64,000 nt of DNA, taken from NCBI GenBank assembly GCA_037355855.1, contig CM074764.1:2170001-2234000 (forward strand), written 5' to 3'. Every line of letters begins with the position of its first letter. Position 1 is the stretch's first letter. Under the pieces are notes generated by a model. The model did not search any database. It saw only the letters and a list, made by a program, of their open reading frames with translations, and was not told the DNA's origin. A program made the translations under genes and the position numbers. Of this stretch, positions 15,280 through 51,200 are shown in pieces. The stretch comes from Pseudo-nitzschia pungens. Its lineage: Eukaryota; Bacillariophyta; Bacillariophyceae; Bacillariales; Bacillariaceae.

Positions 15280-15282
15280 CAA

Positions 15283-15790
15283 GAGCGGTCGGAAATAGAA
15301 AAACGCGCGCAATGCGCGGCACGTTAAGTTTTTCAAAATGATATGAACTTACCATACATATCCTACATATTATATCAACGTGTGATCTACGTATTACTTC
15401 GTAGGACTCCACGATTCAAAATTTAATGGGGATCGGAAATAGAAAAACGTGCGCACCGCGCGACAGGTTAAGTTTTTCAAAATGATACGTATGAACCTAC
15501 CGTACATACTACATATATCAATGTGTGATTTACGTATTAATACGTAGAACGAGATAAGTAACGTTCATGAAAAAAATCTCCACGATTCAAATTTAAAAGG
15601 GGGAACCGGGAAACTAAAAATAGTTGTTTTTGGTTCACGTAATTAAAATTAAAATTACGTACGTAATTAATTAATTACATACGTAATTAATATTACGTAC
15701 GATTGGATTTAATTACGTACGATTGGATTTAATTACGTACGATTGGATTTAATTACGTACGATTGAAGATTAATTACGTAACTATGTGGC
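15283..15790 (+). repeat. Left terminal inverted repeat of giant element
   Basis: Aligns with the reverse complement of about 29975-30471 over roughly 0.5 kb with small indels. The first 28 bases are identical. A second copy of the terminal block starts about 145 bases in (15428), as it does at the right end. The inner part is a tandem TTAATTACGTACGATTGGAT array (about 15690-15770). Confidence 0.9.
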
Positions 15791-15966
15791 TTAAATAGGT
15801 AAAGTAGCCAATTTAACAAGGCAATAATAATTCAAATATGTCCTTTATAAATGTAAAACATAAGCCTTTTATTAAAGCCTCCAAATTGCTTCAATTTGAT
15901 GACAAGGACGATGTATGCGCCTTTTCAAGTGCCGCTAACAGCCACATATTCGGTACCTTACGTACG

Positions 15967-16256
15967 TACAATCTACGACTTGCACTAGTAAGTGGCTGTC
16001 AGCGCCACTTTAAATGGCGCCTGGTTACCCAAGTTGAAGTAGGGGCTATCATCTCCACTCTTTACAATCTACGACTTGCACTAGTAAGTGGCTGTCAGCG
16101 CCACTTTAAATGGCGCCTGGTTACCCAAGTTGAAGTAGGGGCTATCATCTCCACTCTTTACAATCTACGACTTGCACTAGTAAGTGGCTGTCAGCGCCAC
16201 TTTAAATGGCGCCTGGTTACCCAAGTTGAAGTAGGGGCTATCATCTCCACTCTTTA
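15967..16256 (+). repeat. 96-bp subterminal repeat, three copies
   Basis: Three essentially identical 96-base units, each containing AGTGGCTGTCAGCGCCACTT (starting at 15991, 16087, 16183) followed by TAAATGGCGCC. More diverged copies of the motif follow at 16356 and 16555. The motif forms a 7-base-arm hairpin (AAGTGGC / GCCACTT). The frame through the units is an artefact of 96 being divisible by 3. Confidence 0.95.
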
Positions 16257-16639
16257 AACTTACCGTTGTACTGCAGAAACGCCCGTTTAAGTGGCGCTAG
16301 AAGTCCTCACTCTGTCGGAGCTGAGTACCGTATGTACGTGAGGTACATACGAATAAGTGGCTGTCAGCGCCACTTTAGATGGCGCCTTTACTGGTAAGAT
16401 TTAGGCGATACAGTACACACACAGAAGCGCCTCTCATGTTGGCGCCTACGGTAATTAAGGCTTACCTTTACCAATACAACAAGTGGCCGTGAGCGCGGTC
16501 AGAACCAAGACCAACCTGTCACACTTGCATGTCGCTTCAGTTATCACGTTATGCAGTGGCTGTCAGCGCCACTTCCAGGGGCGCCTCTACTATTCCAGGG
16601 GCGCCTCTAGCGCCATAGTGAATAGCATCACGTTCAACC

Positions 16640-17602
16640 ATGATTGCAACTGAAGAGATTTTTGATCAAGAAGCAAGAGAGACTCTTTGCTGGCCAAATC
16701 ATCGCAGATGGAACTCGAAAGAGAAGGAAAAACGAATCCGTGCTGTGTTCGGAGCACCGCTCGATCTAATTGCAGACATATGGAATAAGATCTGGGAGAA
16801 GTTGAGAAAGAGAGAGAGGGAAAAGCTTATTGAAGAAGGTGTTCAATACAAGCATCTTCTCTACGGGCTCGTTCTTATCAAGATATACTCGACAGAAGAA
16901 ATCCATTGTGCAGTACTACTTGATTGGCCCTCAACAAAGACATTCCGTAAGTGGTCTTGGTTCTTCGTTGAAAAAATGTCCGAACTTAAAGTTGATGTCA
17001 TAAAGTTAGAGAATAGATTTGGTGGGTACAAAAGGGGAGACGAGGTAAAGACCAACACATTCATGTCCGTTGACTGCGTCGATTGTCCTATATTTGAGCC
17101 CTGGCCATTCGACAGGAAATGGTTCTTGCAGAAAACAAATGGGCCCGCATTGAAATATGAAGTAGGAGTCTGTATCAGAACTGCGCATATCGTCTGGATC
17201 AATGGTCCTTTCAAAGCCAGCGTGCAAGACCCGGCGATATTCAAAAACGGATTGAGTGAGAAGCTTGCAGTTGACGAATGCGTCGAAGCTGATGGGATCT
17301 ACAATATCAGAGAAGATTCTGTTTCAGCGAGGCAACTTAAGAGGCCTGATATCGGATGGGATTCAGAAGCGAGGAAATCCAAGGCACTTGCTAGGTCGAG
17401 GAACGAAAGAGTTAATGGGAAACTCAAAGTCTTCAATGTACTTACTACATCCTTTCGGCATATGAAGCCAAGAGAAGCCATGATGCAGAAGCACAAAATT
17501 TGCTTCACAGCTGTAGCTGTCATTACGCAGTTGAAAATGGAGGCAGGGGAAAAAATCGAAGACTGGGAATACGATGACGAATTCAAGCCGCATTACTTCT
17601 AG
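16640..17602 (+). CDS. PIF/Harbinger-like DDE transposase
   Basis: 320 residues. The C-terminal half carries the DDE_Tnp_4-type core: Asp145 in SVDCVDCPIFEPWPFDRKW, then a KYEVGVCIRTAHIVWINGPF block, Asp218 in EADGIYN, and Glu256 in RSRNERVNGKLKVFN, followed by TSFRHM and a KHKICFTAVAVITQL helix. The N-terminal half (residues 60-130) is probably helical and may bind DNA. This family catalyses cut-and-paste transposition with 3-bp duplications, matching the CAA at the element ends. All three acidic residues are present, so the protein may be active. It lies 1.36 kb inside the left end and points inward. Assignment is from motif memory, not a search. Confidence 0.85.
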   Translation: MIATEEIFDQEARETLCWPNHRRWNSKEKEKRIRAVFGAPLDLIADIWNKIWEKLRKREREKLIEEGVQYKHLLYGLVLIKIYSTEEIHCAVLLDWPSTKTFRKWSWFFVEKMSELKVDVIKLENRFGGYKRGDEVKTNTFMSVDCVDCPIFEPWPFDRKWFLQKTNGPALKYEVGVCIRTAHIVWINGPFKASVQDPAIFKNGLSEKLAVDECVEADGIYNIREDSVSARQLKRPDIGWDSEARKSKALARSRNERVNGKLKVFNVLTTSFRHMKPREAMMQKHKICFTAVAVITQLKMEAGEKIEDWEYDDEFKPHYF

Positions 17603-17815
17603 AAGTCGGCAATCGCCATGAACGCCCCACGGCAACCGCCCTTCTCCGGAGTCTTTACCGCCACACTCAGGGTCGAACGAAGTCTTCTGTATAATTAAGT
17701 GCTCTATTTTAGTGAATAACCTAGAAGTCGGCCGCCGCCCTTCTCCAGATCGCAAGTTTTACTCTGCTTAATAAGAAACTCAAGTCGTCATGCTATATAT
17801 GAACGACATAGGGCT
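17603..17815. other. Short gap with duplicated CCGCCCTTCTCC motif
   Basis: Contains two AGAAGTCGGC...CCGCCCTTCTCC copies (about 17602-17647 and 17722-17747) between the convergent transposase and the next gene. Confidence 0.4.
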
Positions 17816-20344
17816 TTATTTTTTTTTCTGCATCGGTCCAAACACTCTGAGCTCCTGCACGTCGGCATCTTCAGTATGATGCTCCCCATTTGTATTTTTT
17901 AACATGGCTTTGGCAGCCTCCGCCAATGCTTTGGCAAAAGGAACTCTGAACTCCTCAAAATGTTTCGGCACATAAAACATCACGATGGGTTTATTTCTAC
18001 TGTAGCGATTATTCTCCGCCGTTTTCGGATGCTCGACAAGTTGGTCGAACGTCCCCATGAAGTGGATTGAACAAGGTTTTGAATCCCGATCTTTTTTACT
18101 TTGCCATGTAGTGCTTATCTGCAGATTTTGGATGCTCTTCTGAGAAGTTCGAAACAACCTACGAGCAGTTCTATCTTTGCAACTGTGCACAGTGGTTGGA
18201 GGGTCACCAACTTTTCGCTTGCCACCTTTTTTACGGGGTTTTGTAAGCGGCTGAGTCGGGCAAACGCCTTCAGTTTTCATATCATCAGCTGCAGCTGCTT
18301 CTGATGAAGATGCGCCCGGTAGCGAGATGCCAGGCAGAGAGCTGCCGGTTAGAGATGGGGCCAGCAGAGAATTGCCTGCTGGAGATGCGCCCGGCAGAGA
18401 GTCGCCCGGTGGAGATGAGGCCAGCAGAGAGTCACCAAGTGGAGATGCGCCCGGCAGAGAGCTGCCGGTTAGAGATGCGGCCAGCAGAGAGTCAATCGGA
18501 GGAGATGTATCTGTAGGAAAAAGTTCTTCACTTTCTGTATCATCATCAACAGATACCCGCATGCCGCCCGGTCGAGGTGTGTCCGGTAGAGATCTTCCAC
18601 ACAGTGAAGAAGAATACCGCACCAGCTTTGCAAATGGCGACAAAAAATTTGGTTCCTCAAGCAGTGGTTGTGTGGTTTCCGATGAGGGTGTGGGCATTGC
18701 CTGTGTGGCTACCACTGGACTCTGTTTGAAGCCACCTGGTGATGGACCAGTTGTTCCAGGCGGATCCCTTACGTTTCGGGTTATCGGCAACGCCATTTCC
18801 TGTGGCGCCGGCTTCCGAGCCGACGCATTTGCCAGTGGCGCTGACTTCCGAGCTGACGCCTCTTCCTGTGGCGCTGACTTCCGAGCTGACGCCTCTTCCT
18901 GTGGCGCTGACTTCCGAGCCGACGCCTCTTCCTGTGGCAACAACTTCCGAGCCGACGCCTTTGCCAGTGGCGCTGACTTCCGAGCCGACGCCTCTTCCTG
19001 TGACAACAGCTTCCGAGCCGACGCCTTTGCCAGTGGCGCTGACTTCCGAGCCGACGCCTCTTCCTGTGACAACAGCTTCCGAGCCGACGCCTTTGCCAGT
19101 GGCGCTGACTTCCGAGCCGGCGCCATTACTGGTGGATCCTTCATGGTTGACGGAGCATTCTTTGGAGTCGTCGCCATTGCCGGTGGATCCTTAGTCTTCG
19201 GAGTCGTTGACTTAGCCGCTGGCGCCTTCTGGGTTGCCATTGGAGTCGGTGGAGTCTTCTTTGCCGGTGGATCCTTCATGGTTGCCAATTCAGTCTTCTG
19301 AGTTGTCGCCTTTGCCGCTGGCGACTTGTGGGTTGGAGTCGTCGGAGTCGTCAGCTTTGCCTTGTGGGTAGCCGGTGGATCCTTTGGTGCTAGCGCCATT
19401 GGTTGTGGTGCCCCGGAGTCAGCTCCTTTGCCACTCGCGCCTTTGGTGGTGGGTGTGGTTATTGGGGTAACCTTTTTTTTCTTTGATGGTTTCGTGGAAT
19501 CTGGCTTGCGCTTCCTATTGCGTTTTGTTGGTAAGATGAATCTTGGTTTTGATCGCTTTCTGAGCTGTATGCCATGGTGAAGAGCTGCAATATCTCCTCC
19601 CTCCTCAAATATCAACGGATCAGCGCTTTCATCTGGGCGTACAATCCTGCTTGGTGTTCGGGCAGCTTTTTTCTGAGTTGATTCAATGATCGAGCCGGTT
19701 GGTGTTTCCGAGACTTTGGGAGCCAGCATGTCGTTTGATGATGTTTCTTCAGAGAGACCTTCCTTGGTACGGTGATCGCCACCTGGAGTGGTTGGATCGA
19801 CCGGTGCTGCAACTTGGGGAAAGAGACCTTCCTGGGTACGGTAATCATCGACCAGTGCTGCAACTTGTGGAGAGAGACCTTCCTCGGTACGGTGATCGCC
19901 ACCTGGAGTGGTTGGATCGACCGGTGCTGCAACTTGGGGAAAGAGACCTTCCTGGGTACGGTAATCATCGACCGGTGCTGCAACTTGTGGAGAGAGACCT
20001 TCCTGGGTACGGTGATCATCGACTGATGCCGCAGCTTCTTGAGAGAGATCTTCCTCGGTACGGTGATCGCTACCTCGAATAGTTGGATCGACCGGTGCTG
20101 CAACTTGGGGAAAGAGACCTTCCTGGGTACGGTGATCATCGACTGATGCCGCAGCTTCTAGAAAGAGATCTTCCTCGGTACGGTGATCGCTACCTTGAAT
20201 GGTTGGATTATAGTAGGAGGCTGAGTGGGCGCCATCATGGGCATCAAAAAATTCGCTGTCGTTAGAGGAATTGGAAGAGTTATCGTTATGTGCGTTCGAA
20301 GGGTTGCTTCCCGAAGCAGGCCAAAACCAGGCCATGGTTTCCAT
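17816..20344 (-). CDS. Large repetitive Pro/Ala/Ser/Lys-rich protein, unknown
   Basis: 842 residues from an ATG at 20344. Residues about 40-210 hold tandem units of DHRTEEDL/DHRTQEGLFPQVAAPVD type. The middle is Lys/Pro/Thr-rich with basic patches resembling nuclear localisation signals. Residues about 430-560 repeat ASARKSAPLAKASARKLLSQ, and further on are GxSLPGASP units. Only the last 130 residues look globular (FRTSQKSIQNLQI, then MGTFDQLVEH, NKPIVMFYVPKHFEEFRVPF). I do not recognise a family. It lies within the giant element, tail to tail with the transposase. The repeat structure suggests a fast-evolving, DNA- or protein-binding accessory factor, but that is speculation. Confidence 0.7.
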   Translation of the reverse strand: METMAWFWPASGSNPSNAHNDNSSNSSNDSEFFDAHDGAHSASYYNPTIQGSDHRTEEDLFLEAAASVDDHRTQEGLFPQVAAPVDPTIRGSDHRTEEDLSQEAAASVDDHRTQEGLSPQVAAPVDDYRTQEGLFPQVAAPVDPTTPGGDHRTEEGLSPQVAALVDDYRTQEGLFPQVAAPVDPTTPGGDHRTKEGLSEETSSNDMLAPKVSETPTGSIIESTQKKAARTPSRIVRPDESADPLIFEEGGDIAALHHGIQLRKRSKPRFILPTKRNRKRKPDSTKPSKKKKVTPITTPTTKGASGKGADSGAPQPMALAPKDPPATHKAKLTTPTTPTHKSPAAKATTQKTELATMKDPPAKKTPPTPMATQKAPAAKSTTPKTKDPPAMATTPKNAPSTMKDPPVMAPARKSAPLAKASARKLLSQEEASARKSAPLAKASARKLLSQEEASARKSAPLAKASARKLLPQEEASARKSAPQEEASARKSAPQEEASARKSAPLANASARKPAPQEMALPITRNVRDPPGTTGPSPGGFKQSPVVATQAMPTPSSETTQPLLEEPNFLSPFAKLVRYSSSLCGRSLPDTPRPGGMRVSVDDDTESEELFPTDTSPPIDSLLAASLTGSSLPGASPLGDSLLASSPPGDSLPGASPAGNSLLAPSLTGSSLPGISLPGASSSEAAAADDMKTEGVCPTQPLTKPRKKGGKRKVGDPPTTVHSCKDRTARRLFRTSQKSIQNLQISTTWQSKKDRDSKPCSIHFMGTFDQLVEHPKTAENNRYSRNKPIVMFYVPKHFEEFRVPFAKALAEAAKAMLKNTNGEHHTEDADVQELRVFGPMQKKK

Positions 20345-21057
20345 TCAATTGCGGAACAAATTCAAGTCGTTGATTTCAATTCTTTATGAAAGAAGTTTTG
20401 AATTTTCTTTATGACAGGACTTTCCCCCTCTTTATCTTGTCGTAGTGGAGAGCAGCCAACGTCAACGAGCAGCAACCTCCCAGCGTGGACCACAGCAATC
20501 TCCAAGCGTGAACGGGCATCATCCTCCCAGCGTGGACGAGTATCATCCTTCCAGCGTGGTTTCATGCGTGTTTCAAATTTTGAACGTTAGCCAACTCTAT
20601 TTGGGTCGGCGACAACCTTTTTGAGTGTCGAGAACTGGATGAATCCCTCGAGCGCTCCTTTCCAATCCCTCGTCTACGAGAGTCAAGCGCCACCGAGACA
20701 GTCGCCGATCTAAAAAGTGTGGATGCTGTTCCTTAAGTCTCCCAAGCGCCACTGAGACAGTCGCCAGCCTACACTAAGAGTGTCTAAGTGAAAGATGCAG
20801 ATACGAATAGGTAGTAATAATTTTGTTTTGTCTAACTACCGGTACGGTACCTGTACTGTACCGTATTAGTTTGACATCGAATTTCGATGATCTACTGACA
20901 ATTACGGTTTATGATTGGTGAGGGTACGTACGAGTAACCTTACTGGTACCAGGGATGACCCCTGACAACCTTGTATCGTTACCGGTAGGGGTAATCTTAC
21001 CAGTGTACCTTTCGTGGTGCAACGGAATACAAGTTCTCGTAGTTCTTCTTTTCAATT
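20345..21057. other. Intergenic within giant element
   Basis: No gene seen. Contains three CCAGCGTGGAC-type copies (20485-20560) and two AGCGCCAC(C/T)GAGACAGTCGCC copies (20687, 20743), plus GGTACC-rich sequence at 20836-20970. Confidence 0.5.
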
Positions 21058-21588
21058 TTAAGGAGCCTTGTAATTGGGATTGATTCGACCAATCATGCGG
21101 AGTCGTTCAGCGCTTTCCTTCATCTCGCGTGCAACGCGCAAACGCATAGCCGCCCTAGTTTCGCGCTTTTTCTTGGTGTTCTTCTTCAAAACCGAAATGT
21201 TGACTTCATTGATAAGAGCAGCACCGTCGCGAACTCCTCTGTCATATGCGGCTGCCTCCAAAGAAGCCATGTACTGGTTCATGAACTTGATGTAGTCCGC
21301 CTCATTCCAGTCGTCTTCGTCGTCGTCGGCCGCTTCTTCCTCTGCAGCCTCCTCCTTCGCAGCAGCGTTGACGATGCGCCTGGAGATCTTGTAGATTGCC
21401 GCAACAGGTTCAACGACGAGCTTCAAGAACACATACGAGATCAAAAGAAGTGCCAAGGAAAGAGCGACACGTTGAAGGGCGCCCTTGTACATCATCCACG
21501 CAGCAGCGGCGCCCCCAAGCATGGCGGTGCTGAGAACTGGGTGGGTTTGAACCACACTGGGCAAGATTACAGTGGTGTTACTGGACAT
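21058..21588 (-). CDS. Small membrane protein with acidic linker, unknown
   Basis: 176 residues from the ATG at 21588. An upstream in-frame ATG at 21663 would add 25 residues encoded by GACTTGAAAAGA microrepeats, probably leader sequence. A hydrophobic pair at about residues 18-65 (HPVLSTAMLGGAAAAWMMY, then VALSLALLLISYVFLKLVV) suggests two membrane spans. An acidic stretch, then NEADYIKFMNQYMASLEAAA, and a basic Arg/Lys-rich helical tail follow. No family recognised. The body does not look repeat-derived, which supports a real gene. Confidence 0.7.
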   Translation of the reverse strand: MSSNTTVILPSVVQTHPVLSTAMLGGAAAAWMMYKGALQRVALSLALLLISYVFLKLVVEPVAAIYKISRRIVNAAAKEEAAEEEAADDDEDDWNEADYIKFMNQYMASLEAAAYDRGVRDGAALINEVNISVLKKNTKKKRETRAAMRLRVAREMKESAERLRMIGRINPNYKAP

Positions 21589-21977
21589 GGCGAGACTTGA
21601 AAAGAGACTTGAAAAGAGACTTGAAAGAGACTTGAAAAGAGAAAGCGTGAAAGTAGATGACAATCGATTTGCGAAAGAGAGCAGTCAATTTTTATGAAGG
21701 CAAGCAGTACGATCGATTTTGATGCGAAGGAAGAAGTACAATCGATTTATGCGAAGCAAGATTTTACCAAAGAAAGTTTCAATCCAGTTTCAAAAAACTA
21801 TGAGACAGGGTTGGCTCGCAGTTGGTAATGGGTGAAATTCAAAAAACCAACGTTGCAACGGAAAACAACGGAAAATTTCTCAAAATCCTTGCCTATAACC
21901 TTGCGAAATGAGGGTGCGCCTCACATTTTAAGTATCACAAATTATAAAAATTGCATCGTTAATCAAAAGACAGTACA

Positions 21978-22400
21978 ATGGGAAACCAGCCTTCTACCGT
22001 GACACCAAACAATGAACCAAGGCTTGCCGAGGAAGATTGCGACGCCAGGGTCAACGAAGGAAAAGACGACGACTACGTAATGGTCAACGAAGGAAAAGAC
22101 GACGACTACGTAATGGTCAACGAAGGAAAAGACGACGACTACGTAATGGTCAACGAAGAGAGAGAAGATGTGGTCGTAAGGAAACACGAGTCTTATGAAG
22201 ATACCGTTGCCACCATTATTGACGAATATTTCAGTTCAAGCAGAGAAGAAGCGCCCTTGGTCAAAGACCAGCCTTCACTGGAACTCCAGCAGCCACGCAG
22301 CGCGGCGACACGTGTTCCCGCCATGCAGAAAGGCGGTGGGTCAATTCAGATGTCGACTGTCAGGGTGGTGGACGCCACGGAAAAAGGCGAAACGGAGTAA
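21978..22400 (+). CDS. Small protein with predicted N-myristoylation site
   Basis: 140 residues beginning MGNQPSTV: Gly2 and Ser6 match the N-myristoylation consensus, so membrane anchoring by lipid is predicted. Residues about 26-58 are three exact units of VNEGKDDDYVM, a Tyr in a strongly acidic context that could be phosphorylated. The rest is charged and probably disordered. It diverges from the two-span membrane protein gene across a gap of about 390 bases. Function unknown; the repeat expansion looks recent because the DNA units are identical. Confidence 0.65.
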   Translation: MGNQPSTVTPNNEPRLAEEDCDARVNEGKDDDYVMVNEGKDDDYVMVNEGKDDDYVMVNEEREDVVVRKHESYEDTVATIIDEYFSSSREEAPLVKDQPSLELQQPRSAATRVPAMQKGGGSIQMSTVRVVDATEKGETE

Positions 22401-22988
22401 GCTGCACGTTATAATGGCGGTGACAGCCCATTTTAGATACTCAACCACAATCTACAATTCACAACACGTGGGCGCCCCTAACGGTGGCGAATCCAACGAT
22501 TTGCTACATAGACTACGAGTATCATAACTTTTTAAATCATAGTAGTATTATTGACTTTCATTACTTTTTTTCTCATGAATCGCTCATCGCTGCCAACCAG
22601 CAGACGACGGGCGTTCTATTCCTACGTATACTAATTTTTTATGAACTGTTCACCGCTACCAACCAGCAGACAGGGAACTATTCTAATCAAGACATAAATT
22701 GCTCAATGCAGAGCAAGTTCTTCCAGACCTTCTTCCAAGGTTTTGATGGGATCGATCGAAGAAGATGAAATCGAATCATCATCTCCTGAATCGACGACAG
22801 TTCCGCTACCAACCAGCAGACATGGAACTATTCTAATCAAGACCTAAATCGCTCAAATGCAGAGCAAGTTCTTCCAGACCTTCTTCCAAGGTTTTGATGG
22901 GATCGATCGAAGAAGATGAAATCGAATCATCATCTCCTGAATCGACGTCACTCGAATCATCATCTCCTGTATCGAGGTCTCTAAATAG
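22401..22988. other. Gap holding a 157-bp tandem duplication
   Basis: At about 22649-22962 two nearly identical copies of a 157-base block lie in tandem (CGCTACCAACCAGCAGACA ... CGAATCATCATCTCCTGAA). Weakly related CCAACCAGCAGAC copies start at 22596. No gene seen. Confidence 0.8.
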
Positions 22989-24849
22989 TCATAAATCAGT
23001 CTGAGAGTTGAACACAGAAGCATTATTGTGAGTTGTGTCATGTGAGTCGTCATGTGAGTCGCCATCGTCATTTTTTGGTTTCTTTTGGCATGTCTCTACA
23101 ATGTCTTCGCCAACCTCAACCTCATCGTCATCCACTCTTTTTCTACTGGGCGTCCGGCGGCGTGGTGAGTAATGTCGCGTGGGGCTTCGACCTCTTTGCG
23201 GTGTAGTTTCTTGTCCAGTCGGTTCGCGAACGCCCTGCGGCCGTATGGGGGACGGGGGAATGACTTGTCCAGGCGGTTCGCGAGTGCACAGCTCCACCGG
23301 AACAAGAGGGAGCGACGGGAGCAACGGTCGAGGCTCTACTGTCGGAGGAGCGGGGAGCGACGGTAGAGGCACCGTAGGAGGAGCGGGGAGCGACAGTAGA
23401 GGCACCGTAGGAGGAGCGGGGAGCGACGGTAGAGGCACCGTAGGAGGAGCGGGGAGCGACGGTAGAGGCACCGTCGGAGGAGCGGGGAGCGACGGTAGAG
23501 GCACCGTCGGAGGAGCGGGGCGCGACGGTAGAGCCTTTACCGTCAGAGGAGGACGAGGGGCAGGAAACTCACCAAAATTGACAGCACCCTGACGACGGCT
23601 GACTGTTGCAACAGTTTTTTGACCTTCATCGGATTCAGCCTTCTCGTAAAAGAGTATCTGGAGAATGGTCGTATACTTCTTGGCTTCTTCGTCTGGGTGA
23701 TACTCCGATTCATTCGAATCATCTGAAGCATCCATATCATCAGAATCTTGATTCTTCTTCTCCTTCTTCTTCTTTTCGATTGGGACATCAAACAGATCCA
23801 AAACGACTTTTCCGTTTCTGGTGTCCATCGGATAGTCGAAGATAAAGTTGCCTTTGCTTCGCATCCTGTTGTCTTGGTATTGGGATTTCATATTCTTGAC
23901 GTTCAGCCCCATACTGTCGTAGACTCGATGATTCGCAGGATAGCGCTGAATTTCCTCATCGCTCCCGTCTTTCCTGTATGTATCGAGAGTTGTGAGCATC
24001 AAGCACCTTTCCATGTACTCTGGCCACCTCATTTTTATGTTGAAAGTGTGCTCATTGACCCAAGAGATCTCGAAGTGTCTCAACTTGGCGTCATTATGAA
24101 CGAGCATTCTCATCAAGCAATATCCTCTTTGAACTTCGGCTACTTGATCGAATTCGGTCCAACGACCAGAGATCATAATCATAGCGATAGCACCCTTGAT
24201 TGACTGCTCCATTACGGGGCCGTTAATGTGGAGCTCATCGATACGACGGGAGAGGTCGAGGTCAGTGCTACCAGAGCTTTGACGTTTCTTGGGGGTGGGT
24301 GTTCTGAGGATTGATTTCAACGGCATCTTGCCAGGCTTCTTCAGGTCACTGTCTTCAAGGTCGAATACTACTTGGCCTCCAGAATCAGATTTGGATGTTT
24401 CAGATTTGGATGTTTCAGATTCGTAGTCGGAATCCTCTTCACGTTCAAAAATAGATGGATGTCCCCCGTTCGGACGAACAAGCTTGAGTCCTTGCTTTCG
24501 AAGAAGTTCTGCTATTTCTGCCATTCGCTTGTGGAGAACAAGAAGCGTGAGAAACTTGCAATTGGCATTTGTATTTCTTCACAGTGCTCACCGCCATGCT
24601 GCGTGTCGCTAAACGTCTTACCTTTCCAAAGTGGTAGAATGATCCTTTTTTGATTTTGTCAGATATGGAAGCAGATGAATTCCACTGATCTACTCTTCCA
24701 GCTTTATCCGGATCCCAGCCAACCTTGCCTTCTGTCTCTCGGTAAATCCAGTAGTTGTAGATACAGACTTTACCAACTGAGCTTTGCCTTTCAAATTGTT
24801 CTCTCGGCGAAGCCTGTTTCTTCCCAGCTGCTCCTTTGGTTCGTCCCAT
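22989..24849 (-). CDS. Two-exon cargo gene, charged protein, unknown
   Basis: Exon 1 (24849-24622) starts MGRTKGAAGKKQ and ends SFYHFGK. A 94-base intron with GTAAGACG donor and CCACAAG acceptor joins it in phase to exon 2 (24527-22989), giving about 588 residues. Exon 1 and early exon 2 form a compact part (VCIYNYWIYRETEGKVGWD, then RMAEIAELLRKQGLKLV) that could be a small DNA-binding domain. A folded region spans about residues 170-340 (ISGRWTEFDQVAEVQRGYCL, then FNIKMRWPEYMERCLMLTTL). The C-terminal part is disordered with six or more APPTVPLPSLP units and a basic end. PIF/Harbinger elements often carry a second, Myb-like protein; this is the best-placed candidate, but no Myb motif is visible. 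Confidence 0.75.
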
Positions 24850-24911
24850 GACAAATTATGAGAAGTTCAGAACTATTAGTTCGGAACGATTCTTTACACT
24901 ACTACAAAGTT

Positions 24912-24982
24912 CCTATCAGCTGTCCCCCGGTTCTACATCCTCAACTACTAATTTCTACGGAAACCGGGGGACAGCTGATAGG
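24912..24982. repeat. Perfect 21-bp inverted repeat, 29-base loop
   Basis: Arms at 24912-24932 and 24962-24982 are exact reverse complements (CCTATCAGCTGTCCCCCGGT...). They lie 63-133 bases upstream of the two-exon gene's ATG, so the hairpin may fall in its promoter or leader. Confidence 0.9.
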
Positions 24983-25029
24983 AATTCCGTAGTATGCCGA
25001 GAGGCAAGCCGTTGCGAACTTGCTTAGAG

Positions 25030-25685
25030 TTTCGAAACTAGTACTTCATGATCAGGCAAGTTTCTGAGGTCGGTCTTGGTTCTTCAATGTTCAGTACAGT
25101 ACCAACAGGGAACAAAGCGTCCATTTGACAGGCGTAGAGCGTTAGTTCGAGGGGCGTTTTCCGAGTAACTTATTTCTACTTAGTGAAAGTACATCATGTA
25201 ATTAGCACGGTTCGTAATCGTACGAGGAACAAAGCGTCCATTTGACGGGCGTTGATACTCGAACTGTGGAAGAGACGGGCGTTGATACTTGAACTATGAA
25301 AGAGCATGGGTTAATTACTAATCGTAAGTGGGATGCCCGATCTTGTTCTCGTTCAGTGGATGTTAGCGCCACCTCATCAAGACGAGCTTCTCCGAGTAAG
25401 GCTATTCTAATCGTAAGTAGGAAGGCTGATCTTGTTCTCGTTCAGTGGCTATGTGCGCTAAGTTACCGGTATGTCTATCGGTAATTTACCGGTACGGTAA
25501 GAACTTATTCTCCTTGAGAATTGTTACGGTTACGAGTGCTGCAGGCGCCAACGTGAGAGGCGCTTCAAGAATGAAATTAACGCCCCTTAACGTGGCGCTC
25601 AATGAACGGCGCCATTTTAAGTGACCATGCTTGCTACGGCGCTCGCTAAAGTGCTCGCGTGCTCACTGCAGGGCTGGGCATCCGG
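25030..25685. other. Gap with GGCGCC/GCGCCA motif copies
   Basis: No gene. Duplicated GGAACAAAGCGTCCATTTGAC (25106, 25227) and TAATCGTAAGT...TTGTTCTCGTTCAGTGG (25318, 25408) blocks. Variants of the subterminal motif occur near 25360-25375 and 25590-25660. Confidence 0.6.
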
Positions 25686-26275
25686 TTCTAGTACTTATTG
25701 TACACTATGACCATACTCCACGGTAGTTGGAACTGTATCCCATATTCAGTAGCGTAGCAACCTTAACCTTGTAGAACAATGCTACAGTGTGAACCTTGTA
25801 CTGCTAAGAGCTGCTGGGGTGTGTAGCTCTGGTACAAATCCTACTTGAAGGGCCTAGTATCCTGTTTAGCATCCAGTTCAATATCTCCCCTGGCCTGATC
25901 AGTTCCGTCTATCTGTTAGCAAACTAAATATCTTGTAATAAAGAGCTCCTAAGAGCTGCTGGGGTATGTAGCTCTGGTACAAATCCTACTTAAGGGGCCT
26001 AGCATCCTGTTTAGCATCCAGTTCAATATCCCCCCTGGCGAAGTTCCGTCTATCTGTTAGCACACTAAATATCTTGTAATAAAGAGCTCGTAAGAGCTGC
26101 TGGGGTATGTAGCTCTGGTACAAATCCTACTTAAGGGGCCTAGCATCCTGTTTAGCATCCAGTTCAATATCCCCCCTGGCGAAGTTCCGTCTATCTGTTA
26201 GCACACTAAATATCTTGTAATAAAGAGCTCCTAAGAGCTTAGGAGTTGGGGTTGGTACATATCTATCCTACTAGA
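25686..26275 (+). repeat. Tandem repeat of about 141-145 bp, three to four copies
   Basis: Units start TAAGAGCTGCTGGGGT at about 25805, 25950 and 26091, with a diverged fourth from about 26232. Each contains GTAGCTCTGGTACAAATCCT and TAGCATCCTGTTTAGCATCC. The same family is found inverted at 59.39-60.05 kb outside the element, and the leader (25686-25800) resembles the triplicated block at 62.05, 62.74 and 63.43 kb. Confidence 0.9.
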
Positions 26276-27387
26276 GGACCCTACTACCATCCATTCGTAC
26301 TATCACCCTGTAACACTCTAAGGTAGAAATTCGGAGTAGTATGAATAATTGTGTGTTAATTCACTTTACGAGATGGGATTGAAATTAAAGAGAGGAAATA
26401 ATGAGCGATGAGGTCATCGCGACCTCTTCATATAATGTCCATCCCTGTATATAACATATATTCTGTATGTAACCTTAATCGTATAATCGCTCTCTTCTGC
26501 ATGCCTGTTTGTACATACCAGATTTTCGTACTTGAATACCTTATATATATCTGAATCCCATGTGGGATTCGTTTAATTATTAATTCGTAACACTACTAGC
26601 CTACGCTAGCATGTTACACACCCAAGGGGTGCTGTAAGGTACGGTGTCTGAATCTTGAACCTGTACCGCCTTGTACAGTGCTGGTGTAGGTTTCGTACAT
26701 TGGCTGTTAGCGCCGCTTCAAGCGCCGGTGACGAAAATAATTGTGGATGGAGGAGTGTGGGAACTCAGGTTTTTGATTGAGTGACGGGAATCATGGAACT
26801 ACCGCCTTTTACAGTACTGGTGTAGGTTTCGTAAATTGGCTGTTAGCGCCGCTTCTTCCACAAAATTCTTTACAAACGGTACGATATGTACTGTAGAATC
26901 GCCCGTTAAAGTGGCGCTATGTGACCGTTAGCGCCACTTTCATCGGCGTCTCGTGGCTTATGATAATTAATTACTATGCGCTGAGTTTCGATTTTTTTGA
27001 AAATTTGCTAATATAAATATATAGTAATGAAGATCGAATATTCCCTATCAGGGCTTAATGGATGGGAAAGCCCCTCAAAAGGACGCCATGTGCCCCGTAC
27101 GGTAACTCCCACAGCGAAAATTTGATCGTTCCATGATTCACGTCACTCAAAAACCTGAGTTCCCCACGCTGAGTTCCCCACGCTGAGTTCCCACGCTCCT
27201 CCATCCACACTCCCCTCCACGTTAACAGCTCACGCGTTACTTTGCTCACCACTTCCTTCTCTCACAACTTCCTTCTCTGCAACTTGTTTTCACTTCTCTC
27301 ACAACTTCCTTCTCTGCAACTTGTTTTCACTTTGCTCACAACTTCCTCCAGCTCTCTGCAACTACAAGTACCTTCTAAACCACTCCC
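26276..27387. other. Gap with inverted and CT-rich repeats, no gene
   Basis: Contains an inverted pair (about 26740-26800 versus 27125-27215, GGAACTCAGGTTTTTGATTG type), subterminal-motif variants (26699, 26838, 26925), and a duplicated CTTCCTTCTCTGCAACTTG leader (27250-27350) directly before the next coding region. Confidence 0.6.
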
Positions 27388-28827
27388 ATGGAAAACTACG
27401 TCGAACAAATCCTCCGCATCGTGCATGCCGTCCAGGCCATTTCCCCTAACGCGATGCCCGAACTAACTAACGGTGTCCGCCTAGCGGCCGCTTGGGCAAT
27501 CGCCAGCACCCAGGGCGCAATTGGATCCGCCGCTCCTGCTGTCCTTGCGGTCCTCTCAGATGACACTAATGATCCTCCCCATGCAAACGCTGATCTCCCG
27601 GCAGACGCTGATCTCCAGGCTAATGACAATCCCGCACCTAACACTGATCTCCCGGCAGACGCTGATCTCCAGGCTAACGACAATCCCCCACCTAATGCTG
27701 CTGATCTCCCGGAAGACGCTGATCTCCAGGCTAATGACAATCCGGCACCTAACGCTGATCTCCCGGCAGACGCTGATCTCCCGGCAGACGCTGATCTCCC
27801 GGCAGACGCTGATCTCCCGGCAGACGCTGATCTCCCGGACGCTGATCTCCAGGCTAATGACAATCCCCCACCTAATGCTGCTGATCTCCCGGAAGACGCT
27901 GATCTCCAGGCTAATGACAATCCCCCACCTGATGCTGCTGATCTCCCGGCAAACGCTGATCTCCAGGCTAATGAAGATCTCCCGGCAAACGCTGATCTCC
28001 TGATCGCCGGAGACCCTTTCGCCGAGGACGATTCGAGTGTCAAGGTCCCGCCTCCCGGCGAGCCTGATGCAATCGAGGAGGACGATTTGAGCGTCGAGGC
28101 TCCCGACGTTGAGATCGACCACGCGAACGAGCCCCCTTCCGGTTTGATTCAACTCAACTACCGCCGAAATATGACCAAACGCCTCATCCGACCCCAGGCC
28201 GTTCTTGACGAGCTTGCGCGCCGTGACATCATTGGCAACCGCGCTGCGAACGTCTATGCTGTCCTCCGCCAGGGCCGCCCTACGATGCAGTCAAACGCCG
28301 CCACCGGCGCTGCCTTCATCCTAGCCATCCTCGGCCTGCCCAGACTCGACTACGGCCTCAACATTCCGGGTGCTGTAGGTTCTAGCGGCACTTCTATCGG
28401 CCCTGCCACATTCCATAACCACCTCCTCAATCACCTGTGGAATCACAATAGCCTCATCTTTTCCGCCGTGTCTAACCTCCCCATCCACAAAACGCTCGCC
28501 GGGGTCCCGGAAACTATCCCCAACGTCCCCAAGCCAACCCCTACCACGCTCCAGCTTGTAACTGTCGCGTTCGCGCCGACCGCGAGGGACAACCTCCCTC
28601 ACCGCGGCACCGCGTATTTGCGCTTCGCTGTCCTTAATGGCCTTCTTTTTGCCTTCAACGCGTCCTGCTACGCCCATTTGCTCGGCGCACGGCTTCAAGA
28701 ATACCTTCAAAACCCCTTCCACCAGGCCCACTACGCCAGCAACCTTTTCTTCAGATTACAGACCAGAGACCGGACTGGCGAACGTCGTCCCTATACCCAC
28801 GTCGAAACCCGTTACTACTGGGTCTAA
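27388..28827 (+). CDS. Cargo protein with ADLPADADL repeats, unknown
   Basis: 479 residues. A helical N-terminus (VEQILRIVHAVQAI) is followed at about residues 62-210 by tandem nine- to eighteen-residue units (ADLPADADLQANDNPAPN type), strongly acidic and probably disordered. A globular C-terminal part of about 235 residues follows (MTKRLIRPQAVLDELARRDI, then FHNHLLNHLWNHNSLIFSAV, and GTAYLRFAVLNGLLFAFNAS), ending THVETRYYWV. No family recognised. Third positions are C-rich, unlike the 17.8-20.3 kb gene, so the cargo genes may have separate origins. The start is the first ATG after a CT-rich leader typical of a transcribed 5' end. Confidence 0.75.
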   Translation: MENYVEQILRIVHAVQAISPNAMPELTNGVRLAAAWAIASTQGAIGSAAPAVLAVLSDDTNDPPHANADLPADADLQANDNPAPNTDLPADADLQANDNPPPNAADLPEDADLQANDNPAPNADLPADADLPADADLPADADLPADADLPDADLQANDNPPPNAADLPEDADLQANDNPPPDAADLPANADLQANEDLPANADLLIAGDPFAEDDSSVKVPPPGEPDAIEEDDLSVEAPDVEIDHANEPPSGLIQLNYRRNMTKRLIRPQAVLDELARRDIIGNRAANVYAVLRQGRPTMQSNAATGAAFILAILGLPRLDYGLNIPGAVGSSGTSIGPATFHNHLLNHLWNHNSLIFSAVSNLPIHKTLAGVPETIPNVPKPTPTTLQLVTVAFAPTARDNLPHRGTAYLRFAVLNGLLFAFNASCYAHLLGARLQEYLQNPFHQAHYASNLFFRLQTRDRTGERRPYTHVETRYYWV

Positions 28828-28980
28828 CCGCCGCACACCACCGACCAGAGACCGGACTGGCGAACGTCGTCCCTATACCCATGTCGAAACCCGTTACTGG
28901 GTCTAACCCCCGCACACCACCGCCGAGGCCTCCTTTTCTTCAGACTATGCCTATACCCACGTCGAAACCCGTTGACCTCT
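28755..28980 (+). repeat. Duplicated 3' end of the 27.4-28.8 kb gene
   Basis: The segment encoding TRDRTGERRPYTHVETRYYWV and its stop is repeated about 75 bases downstream with few changes, and a shorter third piece (CCTATACCCACGTCGAAACC) lies at 28948. The extra copies are outside the reading frame and look like tandem duplication scars. Confidence 0.9.
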
Positions 28981-29089
28981 CCCTTTCTCTTGAGCTGCTT
29001 GCATTTTATGGGCCCTTAGTAGGATAGAAATATACCATAGCTAGATGCTGATAGCACTGTAACCTTTACCGGTAATCTTAGTCCTAATA

Positions 29090-29480
29090 GGCAGCGGTAA
29101 CCTTACAGTTCCAGAGGCGCCATTTAAAGTGGCGCCGACAGCCACTTTTTAGTAAGGTTACCGGTACGTACGTTCGGTAAGGTTAAGCTCCCAGCCTACG
29201 ATTTTTTGGTCTTAGCGCCACTTAAAGGGGCGTTTCTACCTTAACCTTAGCGTTAAGATCTTACTTACGGTAAGGTTAAGTTTAGAAGTGGCGCTGACAG
29301 AGTGGCGCTGACAGCCATAAAGGGGCGTTACCTTAGGGTTTACAAACGCAAGCTTTGAAGTGGCGCTGACAGCCACTGTAACGTACGGTAAGATCTTAGT
29401 CCGACTGTACTCCGTACCGTATATCTGTGGTTCTAGTACGTAAGTTACCGGTAAGTTAACCTTACGCAGCAGAGTGACTT
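29090..29480 (-). repeat. Right subterminal motif cluster
   Basis: Inverted copies of the AGTGGCTGTCAGCGCCACTT motif occur at about 29127-29147, 29285-29320 and 29355-29375, mirroring the left cluster. Confidence 0.85.
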
Positions 29481-29880
29481 TTAGCGCCACTTAAAGGGGC
29501 GTTTCATGGTAAGTTTAGAAGTGCGCTGACTTACCTGTAACCCTAAACCCTAACTTACCTTACCTTACCAGTAAAGGCGCCATTGAAAGTGGCGCCGACA
29601 GCGCCCCGCACGTAAACCAGTTGGGATATTAGTACGTACGTACCGAATAAGTGGCTATCAGCGGCACTTTGAATGGCGCGTAGAGTGACTTTTAGCGCCA
29701 CTAGAAGTGCGCTGACTTACCTGTAACCCTAAACCCTAACTTACCTTACCTTACCAGTAAAGGCGCCATTGAAAGTGGCGCCGACAGCCCCCAGTACGTA
29801 AACCAGTTGGGATATTAGTACGTACGTACCGAATAAGTGGCTATCAGCGGCACTTTGAATGGCGCGTATACCTTATACGT
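29480..29880 (+). repeat. 186-bp tandem duplication near right end
   Basis: Two copies offset by 186 bases (GTGCGCTGACTTACCTGTAA at 29521 and 29707), each with GGCGCCATTGAAAGTGGCGC and a short CCCTAAACCCTAA stretch. Confidence 0.9.
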
Positions 29881-29974
29881 CTATAGTAATAGCCTACGCG
29901 CAACATTGATAGGCTTAAGTATATTTTTAATGTTATTTGGCTTATTTAATTATGATATAAGCCACTCAAGAGCT

Positions 29975-30471
29975 TAATTGTGAAATCGTGCATAATTAAA
30001 TCCAATCGTACGTAATTAAATCCAATCGTTCGTAATATTAATTACGTACGTAATTAATTAATTACGTACGTAATTAAATCCAATCGTACGTAATTTTAAA
30101 ATTAATTACGTACGTTACGTAAAGAAAACCAATTTTTAGTTTCCCGGTGCCCCCTTTTTTAAATTTGAATCGTGGAGATTTTTTCATGAACGTTACTTAT
30201 CTCGTTCTACGTATTAATACGTAAATCACACGTTTATATATGTAGAATGTACGGTAAGTTCATACGTATCATTTTGAAAAAACTTAACCTGTCGCGCGGT
30301 GCGCACGTTTTTCTATTTCCGACCGCTTTTTAAATTCACTTATCACGTTCTACGTAGTAATACGTAGATCACACGTTGATATATGTAGTATGTACAGTAA
30401 GTTCATACGTACCATTTTGAAAAAACTTAACCTTTTGCGCGGTGCGCGCGTTTTTCTATTTCCGACCGCTC
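29975..30471 (-). repeat. Right terminal inverted repeat of giant element
   Basis: Reverse complement matches the left terminus from its first base. It has the same internal second copy of the end (about 30328) and the same inner AATCCAATCGTACGTAATTA array. Followed by CAA (30472-30474). Confidence 0.9.
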
Positions 30472-30474
30472 CAA

Positions 30475-46798: not shown

Positions 46799-48238
46799 AT
46801 GGCGTCTAAAGGAACCAAACTGAAACCCTTTAACATCATTCGGGAGGACTGGCCAGAAGACGCCACCGCCGTAAAAATGAATGTAGACAGCGAACAAGGT
46901 GGAATCGCATTCAGCGACTACCTGAAGGTTCTCAATGGTACTGAAAGACCAGAACTCTTCCTTATCTGGAAGAGAGACTTTGACCAGAAAATTGCTGGCA
47001 ATGACAAACTCCAAGAAGACCAGAAATTGGAGGTTCTACAGAGAATTCTCTCTACTGAGGCACTCGGACTTGTCCAGCGAACGCTCGCTCGGACCTACTT
47101 GGCCGAACCAACCCACAAGGTCCATCACACCAGACACGTACAGAAAAAGATCCAAGAGATCGAGCAAAGGGACCAAGCAAACATACTACTATCAATGGGG
47201 CAAGACGCCACCGAAACTCCCATGGGAGCCTCCAAGGAGACGGCAAAGGAGAAACCTCCAAACGCCGACAAAACCGACACCGCCACGGCGAGATCGGACA
47301 AAGAATCAGAGACCGACAACCTCGAGTCTCCAATCCCAAAGAAGAAGGTCGCAAGCGCCCTCATCCAGTACTACCAATCCCAGGAGTACAGAAAGGATGT
47401 CATCGAGGAATGCATGCATGCCCTCAAGCTCAAAATCTTTGGCAATGACCAACACGGCAAGCGCTCGTATATCGTCCTCCGCCGATTCATGCGAGGCATG
47501 CGCGTGGACCTCAAACATGGCATTAGAGCCTGGGCCAATCGAATGGCCGAACTCCAAAGCTACCTCCCAGAATGCCTCTGGGAATGTGGCAGTGACCAAA
47601 TGGAAACACCAAGAAGTTTCACCCAAGGAGAAATGAAGGAAATCTTGGATTCCAACATGACCCACTCCCAACGCGAGAAGCTGGAGCACATTAGTTGGGA
47701 CCTCTACACCCACTCCTTTAACACCACTATCGACAAGCTCGAAAACCTGGAAATCACCATCCGGAAGGAAGCAATAATGCAACAACGCATCACCGACCTC
47801 GAAAAGCAGACCGGTGTCACCAAGAAGACTCCCAAGGCCGCATCTGGGGGAGGAACCCACCACGGGAAATCCCCTGGCAAAAAGAAGCGCCCTATGGACA
47901 ACAGCAGCAACAAGCAATTGTGCAAAACCTGTGGCAAGGTCCATGCCGGCAAATGCTGGAAACTAACCGGCGGACCCCCCAAGAAGGGAAAGTTCGACCG
48001 GGAGACGCTCAACTTGCTCAAGGAGCATTTTGTGGCAAAGGAAGACTCAGACAACGAGCAGTACTCCAAACCCCACTGGGGAAGGAACTTATCAAATCAC
48101 GAGTACTCCTATGTACTGGCCACGGCCCAAGCTGACCACGAAGTCTCCGATGACGAGATCGATATCTCTGAACGAGAACTCAAAGAGTACAGAAGAAAGT
48201 ACAGAAAGACTTTTAAAAAGAAAGGATCCCACAACTGA
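46799..48238 (+). CDS. gag: Ty3/gypsy gag
   Basis: 479 residues, preceded by a 777-base leader. The capsid-like middle is helical (YRKDVIEECMHALKLKIFG, VDLKHGIRAWANRMAELQSY). A single zinc knuckle, CKTCGKVHAGKC (Cys375, Cys378, His382, Cys386), is a short CX2CX3HX3C version, followed by a basic stretch. Gag packages the element RNA in a virus-like particle. It ends with TGA and the pol frame continues at once in the same phase. Confidence 0.95.
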   Translation: MASKGTKLKPFNIIREDWPEDATAVKMNVDSEQGGIAFSDYLKVLNGTERPELFLIWKRDFDQKIAGNDKLQEDQKLEVLQRILSTEALGLVQRTLARTYLAEPTHKVHHTRHVQKKIQEIEQRDQANILLSMGQDATETPMGASKETAKEKPPNADKTDTATARSDKESETDNLESPIPKKKVASALIQYYQSQEYRKDVIEECMHALKLKIFGNDQHGKRSYIVLRRFMRGMRVDLKHGIRAWANRMAELQSYLPECLWECGSDQMETPRSFTQGEMKEILDSNMTHSQREKLEHISWDLYTHSFNTTIDKLENLEITIRKEAIMQQRITDLEKQTGVTKKTPKAASGGGTHHGKSPGKKKRPMDNSSNKQLCKTCGKVHAGKCWKLTGGPPKKGKFDRETLNLLKEHFVAKEDSDNEQYSKPHWGRNLSNHEYSYVLATAQADHEVSDDEIDISERELKEYRRKYRKTFKKKGSHN

Positions 48239-51200
48239 ATGGTTGATACCATCCACACCGGACCACGGATCATCAACAGATTTGCGGACATCTGTGTGGA
48301 GGTATTGGACCACAAGGGAAGGGGGAGGATGCTCCGGGGCCTATTAGACTCTGGGTGCTCCAAATCCATCATACTACGGCAATTTGTCGACCGAAGTCAA
48401 CTAACGAACCGAGACCAAAGATCTGTCACCTACAATACCTATGGGGGCAAGTTCAGAACCAGGTCTGCGGCTTCAGTGGGACTAAGGTTGATAGAATTTT
48501 CAAACTCCAAGACCATTAAATGGACCTTCCAAGTGGATGAATACCATCACCACGAGGAAGTACCCTATGACATGATCATAGGATCCGACCTAATGGCACA
48601 ACTGGGACTGGATATAAAATACAGCTCCCGTACGATTGAATGGCAGGGTGACTCTATTCCCATGAAGGGGATGGGGGAGCTCTCGAACCCGGACAAATGT
48701 GAGGCAGTATTCTTTGCCAACACACAGAGTCCAATCCTCCAACAAGAGGAAGAAAGGCAAGCCAAAATCTTGGACGCAGACTACTCCAAAGTCGACATAG
48801 ACGCTATGGTCAACGACCTGGAAATTACTGCGGACTCCAAGGAAGCCTTGAAGAAAACACTGAAGAAATTCCCGACACTCTTTGGAGGAGGTCTGGGACT
48901 ACTGAAGAATATAGAACCGGTGTCCATTGAACTCCAACCAGGGGTCAAACCGGTCCGACAGAGGTACTACTCCGTACCCCATGCCTTTGAACAGGCACTA
49001 CGAAAGGAGATCACCAGGCTCTGTGACATCGGGGTATTGGAAAAACTCCCCCATGATGATGATTCACCATGGGCATCCCCCACGTTCTGTCAACCGAAGA
49101 AGACAGGCGATATCCGAGTCCTTACAGACTTCCGGAAGATGAATGCCGCAATCCAGAGGAAACCATTCCCACTACCACGAATAGGGGAAACAATCCAAAG
49201 GTTACAGAAGTTCCAGTCAGCCACGGCGCTGGACTTGTCCCAAGGCTATTATACAATCCCCATCTGCAAGGAGAGCCAAAAGATTTGCTCTACCATTCTA
49301 CCATGGGGGAAGTATGCCTACAAGAGACTGGCAATGGGAATCGCATGCGCGCCCGATATCTTCCAATCAGTCATGATGAACCTCCTTGGCGACCTGGACT
49401 ACGTCCTTGTCTACATTGATGATATCCTAATCATCCAGAGAGAAGGGGAATCTGAACAGGATCACCTCGACAAAATCGATACAGTCCTACAAAGACTGGA
49501 TGACGCCGGCTTTCGAGCCAACCTCAGAAAATCCTTTTTCATGCAAAAAGAAGTGGAATATCTGGGTTTTCTATTAACAACAGAGGGCATTCAGCCCCAG
49601 CCAAAGAAGCTGGAGGCGATGAAGCGCCTGGAAGCTCCCAAGAACACCAAGCAACTCAAGATGTTCCTTGGAATGGTAAATTTCTACCGGGACATGTGGA
49701 AGCGCCGCTCCCACATCCTAGCCCCTCTGAACAAACTAGCAGGGAAAAAGGGCAAAATGAACTGGTACTGGGGTCCAGCAGAGCAGAAAGCTTTCATGGA
49801 GGCGAAGAGAATGCTCGCAGATGAAGCAAAGCTTGCATTCCCGGACTTTACAAAACCATTTCATCTCTACTCAGACGCCAGCGATAGGCAACTGGGAGCC
49901 ACTGTGTGCCAAGATGGCAAACCCCTTGGTTTCTATACCCGGAAACTGAACTCCGCGCAGCTCAACTACACCGTAGGCGAAAAAGAACTCCTGGGCATAG
50001 TAGAGGGGCTAAAAGCATTTGAAGGAATCCTACGAGGACAAGATGTGATTATTCACACAGACCACCTTAACCTGCTCTACCAGCAGATGCCCACCCAAAG
50101 GATGGTCCGGTGGAGACTTCTTATGGAGGAGTTCCACCCAGTAGTCAAGCATGTTGCTGGCAAAGACAATGACGCAGCAGATGCATTGTCTCGTCTGGAC
50201 ATCACAGATGACCCAGCAGACACAGTGGAATGGCTACCACCAAATAAGCCCCTCACCTACGCGGATGAGGAAGAGCACCTCCGGCAACTCCTATTCCCAC
50301 TTGGAGAAGAAGCGCCGGAAGAATTCCAGGGCAATAGTGCATTCCCACTTGCTCCGGACATGATTCAGTTCTACCAGCAAAAGGACACAGAAATCGTGAG
50401 TGCTCTGGAACAAGACAAACGACTGACCACCAAAATGGTGGAAGGTTACAACTTAATCCATAAAGAAGGAAAGATTCTCGTCCCGACCAAACTCAAAGAC
50501 AGAGTCATGGAATGGTACCACAGCATGTTGGTCCATCCCGGAGAAAAGAGAATGGAACAGAGCATTCGCTCAGTGTTCACCTGGAAAGGCCTACGAAAGG
50601 ACGTCCAGGACCTCTGTAAGCACTGCCACACGTGTCAGATGTTCAAAAAGAGTGGCCGGAAGAAGTATGGACTACTACCGGAGAAAGCAGCTGAGGTTAC
50701 CAAATGGCAGAGGGTCAATGTGGACCTCTGGGGACCTGCAACTGTCCACAACAAAAATGGTAAAGACTACCACATCCATGTTCTCACCATGGTGGACCCA
50801 GTGACCGGATGGTTTGAACTGGCTCACCTGAAGGACTCCCCAAATGCAGCAGAAACTCAACGTTTGCTAGACAGTACATGGCTAGCAAGGTATCCGCGCC
50901 CAAAGGAAATTGGCTTTGATGGCGGGAGTGAGTTCAAAGCAGAGTTCCAGGAGCTCTGTGACAACATGGGGATGAAAAGAAAGCCCAGTGGCGCTTGGAA
51001 CCCACAGTCCAACTCAGTGCTGGAGAGGATCCATCAGGTCCTGAAGGACTGTCTACTGTCCTTTAACCTGGAACAAAGAGACCTCCATGAGGAGGATCCC
51101 TTTGAGGAATTCACCACCAAGGCAGCGTACGCCATCAGAAGTGCCATCCACACCACCCTGGGATATTCCCCAGCGCAATTGGTGTTTGGAAGGGACATGT

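Follow-up and report, generated by a model that had tools for sequence, protein, structure and literature searches.

A transposon of 15,189 bp lies at positions 15283–30471 of the window, that is, the whole 64,000-nucleotide stretch of Pseudo-nitzschia pungens DNA analysed here. Very probably it is a DNA transposon of the PHIS (PIF/Harbinger-like) superfamily that moves by cut and paste and has been active recently in its diatom host. At 14–16 kb its copies are unusually large, on this reading because a transposition core of two genes is accompanied by four others. The same unit occupies six places in the genome, carries a DDE transposase gene and sits at CNG targets, flanked by a triplet at either end. 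At about 15 kb, the window element is three to four times as long as Harbinger-like transposons usually are; it is bracketed by CAA triplets, the target-site duplication, at 15280–15282 and 30472–30474. The original prediction had proposed these triplets and a single unit at 15280–30474; the unit stands, and that range takes in both triplets. Its terminal inverted repeats (TIRs) are about 0.5 kb long, as anticipated, and are identical at 408 of 467 aligned positions. The left repeat (15283–15778, plus strand) starts with GAGCGGTCGGAAATAG, and the right one occupies 29984–30471 on the minus strand; their 29 outermost bases are identical, where 28 had been counted before. The end motif recurs further inside each TIR (from about 15429 on the left, at about 30328 on the right), and smaller related elements match the left TIR from this inner copy onward. 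A non-coding tandem repeat with a unit of about 141–145 bp (25756–26323) varies in repeat number among copies.

Six long copies of 14–16 kb, namely the window copy and five others, are located on six contigs and have both the interior and the ends in common. A further copy on another contig consists of the ends only (1.2 kb). Between copies, homology breaks off at the element ends and the flanks differ. The long copies differ by only 0.04–0.6%, indicating that mobility is recent. In addition, the window itself contains a paralogous empty site for copy C10 (1148–1161, minus strand), where a single CNG (CCG) stands in place of the two triplets of the filled site. At least 19 smaller elements elsewhere in the genome bear the ends of the giant, through the inner TIR unit, without its interior, and they gave no Harbinger-like transposase match. 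The presence of such ends without the interior would suit the idea that two independent solo repeats flank unrelated sequence by chance. However, interior and ends occur together at five further loci, each on a contig of its own, so neither chance nor a pair of solo repeats accounts for the unit, and the outcomes that were to refute the original prediction (no second copy, or unrelated interiors) did not come about. Together with the empty site, these shared interiors refute the solo-repeat reading, which retains practically no probability.

Across 26 elements, small ones included, 50 of 52 flanking triplets are CNG and the remaining two are CAA. CAG and CTG are the commonest CNG triplets, and CCG and CGG also occur. 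The left and right triplets are identical in 19 of the 26 elements. Among giant-type copies, they are identical in only 3/7, and the middle base differs in the other 4/7, which counts against the explanation that we prefer. Assembly error was considered as the entire cause of these mismatches and was set aside because mismatched triplets are also found in the 1.2-kb copy and in 3/19 small elements.

The transposase (16640–17602, plus strand; 320 aa) matches Pfam DDE_Tnp_4 (PF13359) with 28.4 bits against a cut-off of 24.8. In an alignment of 124 sequences including the query, D145 and E256 are each identical in 97.5%, and D218 in 100%, of the 119–121 sequences with a residue at the position. 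The proposal of an internal Harbinger-like transposase with this triad is thus borne out. A sequence search of solved structures with the transposase gave no credible match. Alternatively, the giant may not be self-mobile and may owe its copies to segmental duplication or to a transposase from another family with shared ends. The inner TIR unit on smaller elements and the broken transposase frame of copy C12 are consistent with this view. However, the frame is open in the other five of the six long copies, the nearest other transposases found in the genome are only 31–38% identical apart from one short piece at 47%, and homology between copies ends with the element, in differing flanks. We regard this alternative as improbable.

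The transposase gene is convergent with a gene for an 842-aa repeat-rich protein (17816–20344, minus strand), a probable accessory transposition protein. Its C-terminal domain (residues ~704–838) is also found in genes adjoining some other Harbinger-like transposases of the genome, and this sequence relationship suggests that the 842-aa gene is probably the usual second transposition gene of a Harbinger-like family. A PHIS transposase is expected to need a second gene, for which the 842-aa gene is the candidate. Outside the giants, 7 of 41 matches to this domain lie within 10 kb of another transposase (0.32 expected); the other 34, including four of the eight strongest, are not near any transposase match. 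Neither the 842-aa protein nor two of its relatives has a Pfam Myb/SANT match at an E-value of 1, and a database search with the C-terminal alignment yielded 6617 candidates, none of them at an E-value of 0.001.

In the preferred cut-and-paste reading, the transposase would cut at the GAGCGGTC ends and insert the element into a CNG target opened with a 3-bp stagger. The 842-aa protein may bind the ends or escort the transposase, by analogy with ORF1 of other PIF/Harbinger elements. The same proteins may also mobilise the smaller elements with shared ends.

The remaining four genes differ in their relationships. All five coding regions proposed besides the transposase are open frames, of which the one of 511 aa was lacking its first exon. 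It belongs to a spliced gene of 588 aa on the minus strand, in which exon 1 (24622–24849) is followed by a 94-bp GT-AG intron (24528–24621) and by exon 2 (22989–24527), containing the 511-aa frame. One relative of this gene, P0121, is present in another sequence record with 51% identity and the same exon structure, indicating that the 588-aa gene is not a local accident. A sequence search of solved structures with the 511-aa frame found no credible match. A gene of about 230 aa (L044, L045) accompanies other transposases in the genome, lying within 10 kb of a transposase match in 6/7 places. Its homology to the 588-aa gene, suspected by eye, was not supported by hhalign (probability 0.4%).

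The 176-aa protein (21058–21588, minus strand) has one clear hydrophobic stretch (residues 36–68). Two membrane spans had been expected, and only this single stretch stands out at the threshold used. The 140-aa protein (21978–22400, plus strand) contains 11-residue repeats, and its N-terminus fits an N-myristoylation pattern. Since both genes turned up in every one of the six long copies and at no other place in this genome, the membrane protein and its putatively myristoylated companion are more likely to act for the element than for the host.

The 479-aa protein (27388–28827, plus strand) is related in its N- and C-terminal parts to the ORF of a probable tyrosine-recombinase retrotransposon. 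Three elements of the same genome (L043, L046 and L047) bear such an ORF of 331–333 aa, and that of L043 is 42% identical to the 479-aa protein over 248 residues. L043 and L046 are presumed to be retrotransposons from motifs recognised by eye and a weak integrase match (phrog_216, E=0.0013), and all three would be of the DIRS-like kind. They carry reverse-transcriptase-like, RNase-H-like and recombinase ORFs, whereas the giant does not. Pfam and solved-structure searches did not confirm their reverse transcriptase or recombinase, and a solved-structure search with the 479-aa frame also gave no credible match. The gene was probably exchanged between the giant and such a retrotransposon, in either direction. 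Of the five genes originally presented as unknown, the 176-aa and 140-aa genes therefore retain that standing, having been found only in the six copies, whereas the 842-aa gene is a probable family accessory gene, the 588-aa gene is spliced with a relative elsewhere and the 479-aa gene has a relative in a probable retrotransposon. Two structure predictions, with mean pLDDT values of 36.3 and 46.7, were of too low a quality for use.

Whether these genes matter to the element bears on two further readings. The giant may have arisen in a single event that trapped unrelated sequence between Harbinger ends. In that case the transposase, possibly with the 842-aa protein, would be all that counts, and the four other genes would be neutral passengers heading for decay. 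The kinship of the 479-aa gene with a retrotransposon ORF is consistent with such an origin. Codon changes among these very young copies look near neutral, with no sign of selection (17 synonymous, 43 non-synonymous; ratio 0.78, P=0.36). Furthermore, one ORF is already broken in each of three long copies out of the six: the transposase in C12, the 511-aa frame in C2 and the 479-aa frame in C10. However, 33 of 36 ORF-by-copy cases keep both ends, and P0121 preserves the exon structure of the 588-aa gene. In addition, indel lengths are multiples of three in 12/14 coding cases as against 7/21 non-coding ones (P=0.005), a difference to be read with the caveat that fixed repeat lengths in coding regions alone favour multiples of three. 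On balance, neutral passage of the four genes is a substantial possibility that we hold to be somewhat doubtful. A more ambitious reading is that diatoms harbour a distinct, self-sufficient PHIS lineage that targets CNG, carries several genes and uses its accessory set to spread or to control itself. This set would comprise a transposase partner other than Myb, a conserved protein from a spliced gene, the membrane and putatively myristoylated proteins, and the gene common to the giant and tyrosine-recombinase retrotransposons. End joining would then tolerate a middle-base target mismatch, so that the flanking triplets need not match. We consider this unlikely, though worth entertaining.

Long TIRs, a length of about 15 kb and several genes, among them one for a membrane protein and one whose product is putatively myristoylated, also recall a virus-derived or virus-like element with a borrowed transposase, such as Polinton/Maverick. 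Polintons/Mavericks carry genes for a protein-primed polymerase, an integrase and a capsid, and generate a 6-bp duplication. In contrast, the duplication of the giant is 3 bp, and neither Pfam with all six genes nor PHROGs with four of the five non-transposase genes gave a match to a polymerase, integrase, capsid or packaging ATPase. The best PHROGs hit of the 176-aa protein, to a terminase-small-subunit family, is not significant (E=0.014), and a search of viral contigs with the transposase and the 511-aa frame found no relatives. A viral origin is thus highly improbable.

Several transposase families are known to have giant transposons that carry genes. No giant or multi-gene Harbinger was found in the literature searched, which is not proof of absence; in the main text of one review (PMC6431247), the word transposon has 26 matches, and Harbinger or PIF none. 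With a Harbinger-driven giant, the mobilisation of several genes at once would reach a transposon superfamily that is among the most widespread in eukaryotes, in algae of ecological importance, and the copies are young enough for tests in living strains.

By its DDE_Tnp_4-type transposase and its TIRs with a target duplication within the 0–3 bp of the superfamily, the giant falls within the PHIS/Harbinger superfamily but outside the named groups with which it was compared. Like the PHIS elements described in a survey (PMC4482050), it has a DDE transposase, TIRs, a short target duplication and a second gene beside the transposase. However, autonomous elements there average 3.5–4.8 kb with mostly two ORFs, so that its 14–16 kb and six genes exceed the published norm as foreseen, and it differs further in its CNG triplets and the lack of a detected Myb/SANT domain. 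These last two features also place it outside PIF/Harbinger in the narrow sense, to which it had been assigned, because the survey gives that group TWA duplications and a Myb/SANT second ORF (PMC4482050). NuwaI, as described there, has CWG duplications that overlap CNG, but it is reported only in animals, with TIRs of 12–61 bp usually starting with GGG and a Myb/SANT second ORF (PMC4482050), whereas the ends of the giant start with GAG, its TIRs are 0.5 kb long, CCG and CGG triplets occur too, and the window copy is flanked by CAA. In Ectocarpus (PMC12477816), Harbingers have two tail-to-tail genes, and the giant KDZ, EnSpm and Sola-1 elements of this stramenopile likewise exceed 10 kb and carry several accessory genes, although they use other transposase superfamilies than the diatom giant.

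The giant element occupies positions 15283-30471 of the window, with a CAA triplet on each side and terminal inverted repeats (TIRs) whose 29 outermost bases are identical; overall, 408 of 467 aligned TIR positions agree. When the whole genome (66.9 Mb, 28 contigs) was searched, the left end gave six further matches that were complete or almost complete, and the right end matched the same six places. The interior is also present at five of them (contigs C2, C6, C9, C10 and C12), and the place on contig C8 consists of the ends only (1.2 kb). With gaps left aside, divergence is 0.50-0.60% between the window copy and each of the five further long copies, and 0.04-0.29% among those five. Both ORF ends are kept in 33 of 36 ORF-by-copy cases. 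Compared with the other copies, the window copy has 14 coding and 21 non-coding indels, of which 12 and 7, respectively, are multiples of three (P = 0.005), a bias that fixed-length repeat units in coding regions also favour. Few codon changes separate the copies, and their pattern is close to neutral (17 synonymous and 43 non-synonymous; ratio 0.78, P = 0.36). From these counts, it follows that the reading frames of the giant are kept across copies, without evident selection.

Smaller elements of about 2.2-8.3 kb (loci L020, L021 and L024-L040) also carry the giant's inner TIR unit. In all 19, both ends could be read, and the end regions are common with the giant but little else is, as judged on matches of at least 150 bases. 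None of the 19 overlaps a Harbinger-like transposase hit, and they would be candidates for mobilisation by the proteins of the giants. Many of their interiors are satellite-like repeats. The element at L039 contains an 886-aa ORF with a DDE_Tnp_1_7 domain (L039:1350-4010, E = 4.5e-24), which is a nested element. An ORF pair in the window (46799-51505; 479 and 1088 aa), which by eye has the look of a gypsy-type retrotransposon, is nearly the same as a pair within L024.

Target triplets were read at both ends of 26 elements, namely 7 giant-type copies and the 19 small ones. The two triplets are identical in 19 elements (3 of 7 giant-type, 16 of 19 small) and unlike in the other 7 (L009/L010, L013/L014, L015/L016, L019, L031, L035 and L040), always at the middle base only, such as CAG versus CTG. 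CNG accounts for 50 of the 52 flanking triplets, the remaining two being the CAA pair of the window copy. The unlike middle bases look as if end joining had tolerated a mismatch there or the copies had recombined. The sequences on either side of the C10 copy have a counterpart at positions 881-1480 of the window (minus strand), where an empty site reads CTTGGGT-CCG-ACGAAGC uninterrupted; a single CNG at this paralogous, non-identical sequence compares with CGG and CTG at the filled C10 site. The C2 copy sits in satellite-like repeats of the same kind as those inside the small elements; the commonest reading of the repeat around it is CAG followed by G's, and its flanks are CAG and CTG.

The transposase of the giant matches DDE_Tnp_4, with all three catalytic residues conserved. 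It has 121 related proteins at E 0.001; among the 120 matches listed, most are nameless, and the named ones are diatom proteins, by name from Fragilariopsis cylindrus. The labels Psemu1 and CCRYP on such relatives presumably denote Pseudo-nitzschia multiseries and Cyclotella cryptica. The 842-aa gene is convergent with the transposase gene. Outside the giants, the C-terminal domain of its product has at least 41 matched places, 7 of which lie within 10 kb of another transposase hit versus 0.32 expected, as counted with 25 transposase hits other than the giants' own. Among the eight strongest of these matches, four fall inside this distance, and the remaining four have no transposase nearby by either search. 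The tail-to-tail order is seen again in L044, and both genes lie on one strand in L042 and L045. No Myb/SANT domain was found in the 842-aa protein, and a protein database search with its C-terminal domain gave no match. The pair is consistent with the layout of PIF/Harbinger elements, where two genes, ORF1 and the transposase, are both required (PMC2836001). L044 (779-1489) and L045 (4499-5200) also contain a gene for some 230 aa that has no Pfam match. It occurs together with a transposase of another Harbinger-like family at 6 of the 7 places where it was seen, and is possibly another accessory gene.

The 511-aa, 176-aa and 140-aa proteins matched the six long copies and nowhere else in the genome. 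A predicted 94-bp GT-AG intron would join an upstream exon to the 511-aa ORF to yield a 588-aa product. The sole match to the 511-aa region at E 0.001 (2864 candidates) is P0121, a protein of another sequence record, which is 51% identical over the searched region and in which the N-terminal part of the 588-aa protein is also present. In the 176-aa protein, one hydrophobic stretch is clear, and the 140-aa protein agrees with a myristoylation pattern and is putatively myristoylated. The last 218-224 residues of the 479-aa protein match 11 genomic places at 44-47%; a twelfth match reaches 53% over 138 residues, a thirteenth is a 55-residue piece, and all 13 are more than 10 kb away from any Harbinger-like transposase hit. 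At the two places of 13 whose surroundings were inspected (L043 and L046), the related ORF begins 207 and 205 bases after a recombinase-like ORF, which is preceded by reverse-transcriptase-like and RNase-H-like ORFs, their motifs recognised by eye. L043, L046 and L047 are probable tyrosine-recombinase retrotransposons with an extra 3'-end ORF related to the 479-aa gene.

Elements of the PHIS superfamily, which includes PIF/Harbinger-like transposons, have been surveyed as carrying mostly two ORFs, with average lengths of 3.5-4.8 kb, and the PHIS group NuwaI, described there as found only in animals, has CWG duplications (PMC4482050). Harbinger-like elements are known in the diatom Thalassiosira pseudonana (PMC2806351). 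In Ectocarpus, the giant transposons described are KDZ, EnSpm and Sola-1, and the autonomous Harbingers there carry a tail-to-tail pair of genes (PMC12477816). The terms Harbinger and PIF do not occur in the main text of a 2019 review of giant transposons (PMC6431247). From this comparison, the giant is therefore placed in the PHIS superfamily, in no named group tested, as an element whose size, gene set and CNG target are unusual.
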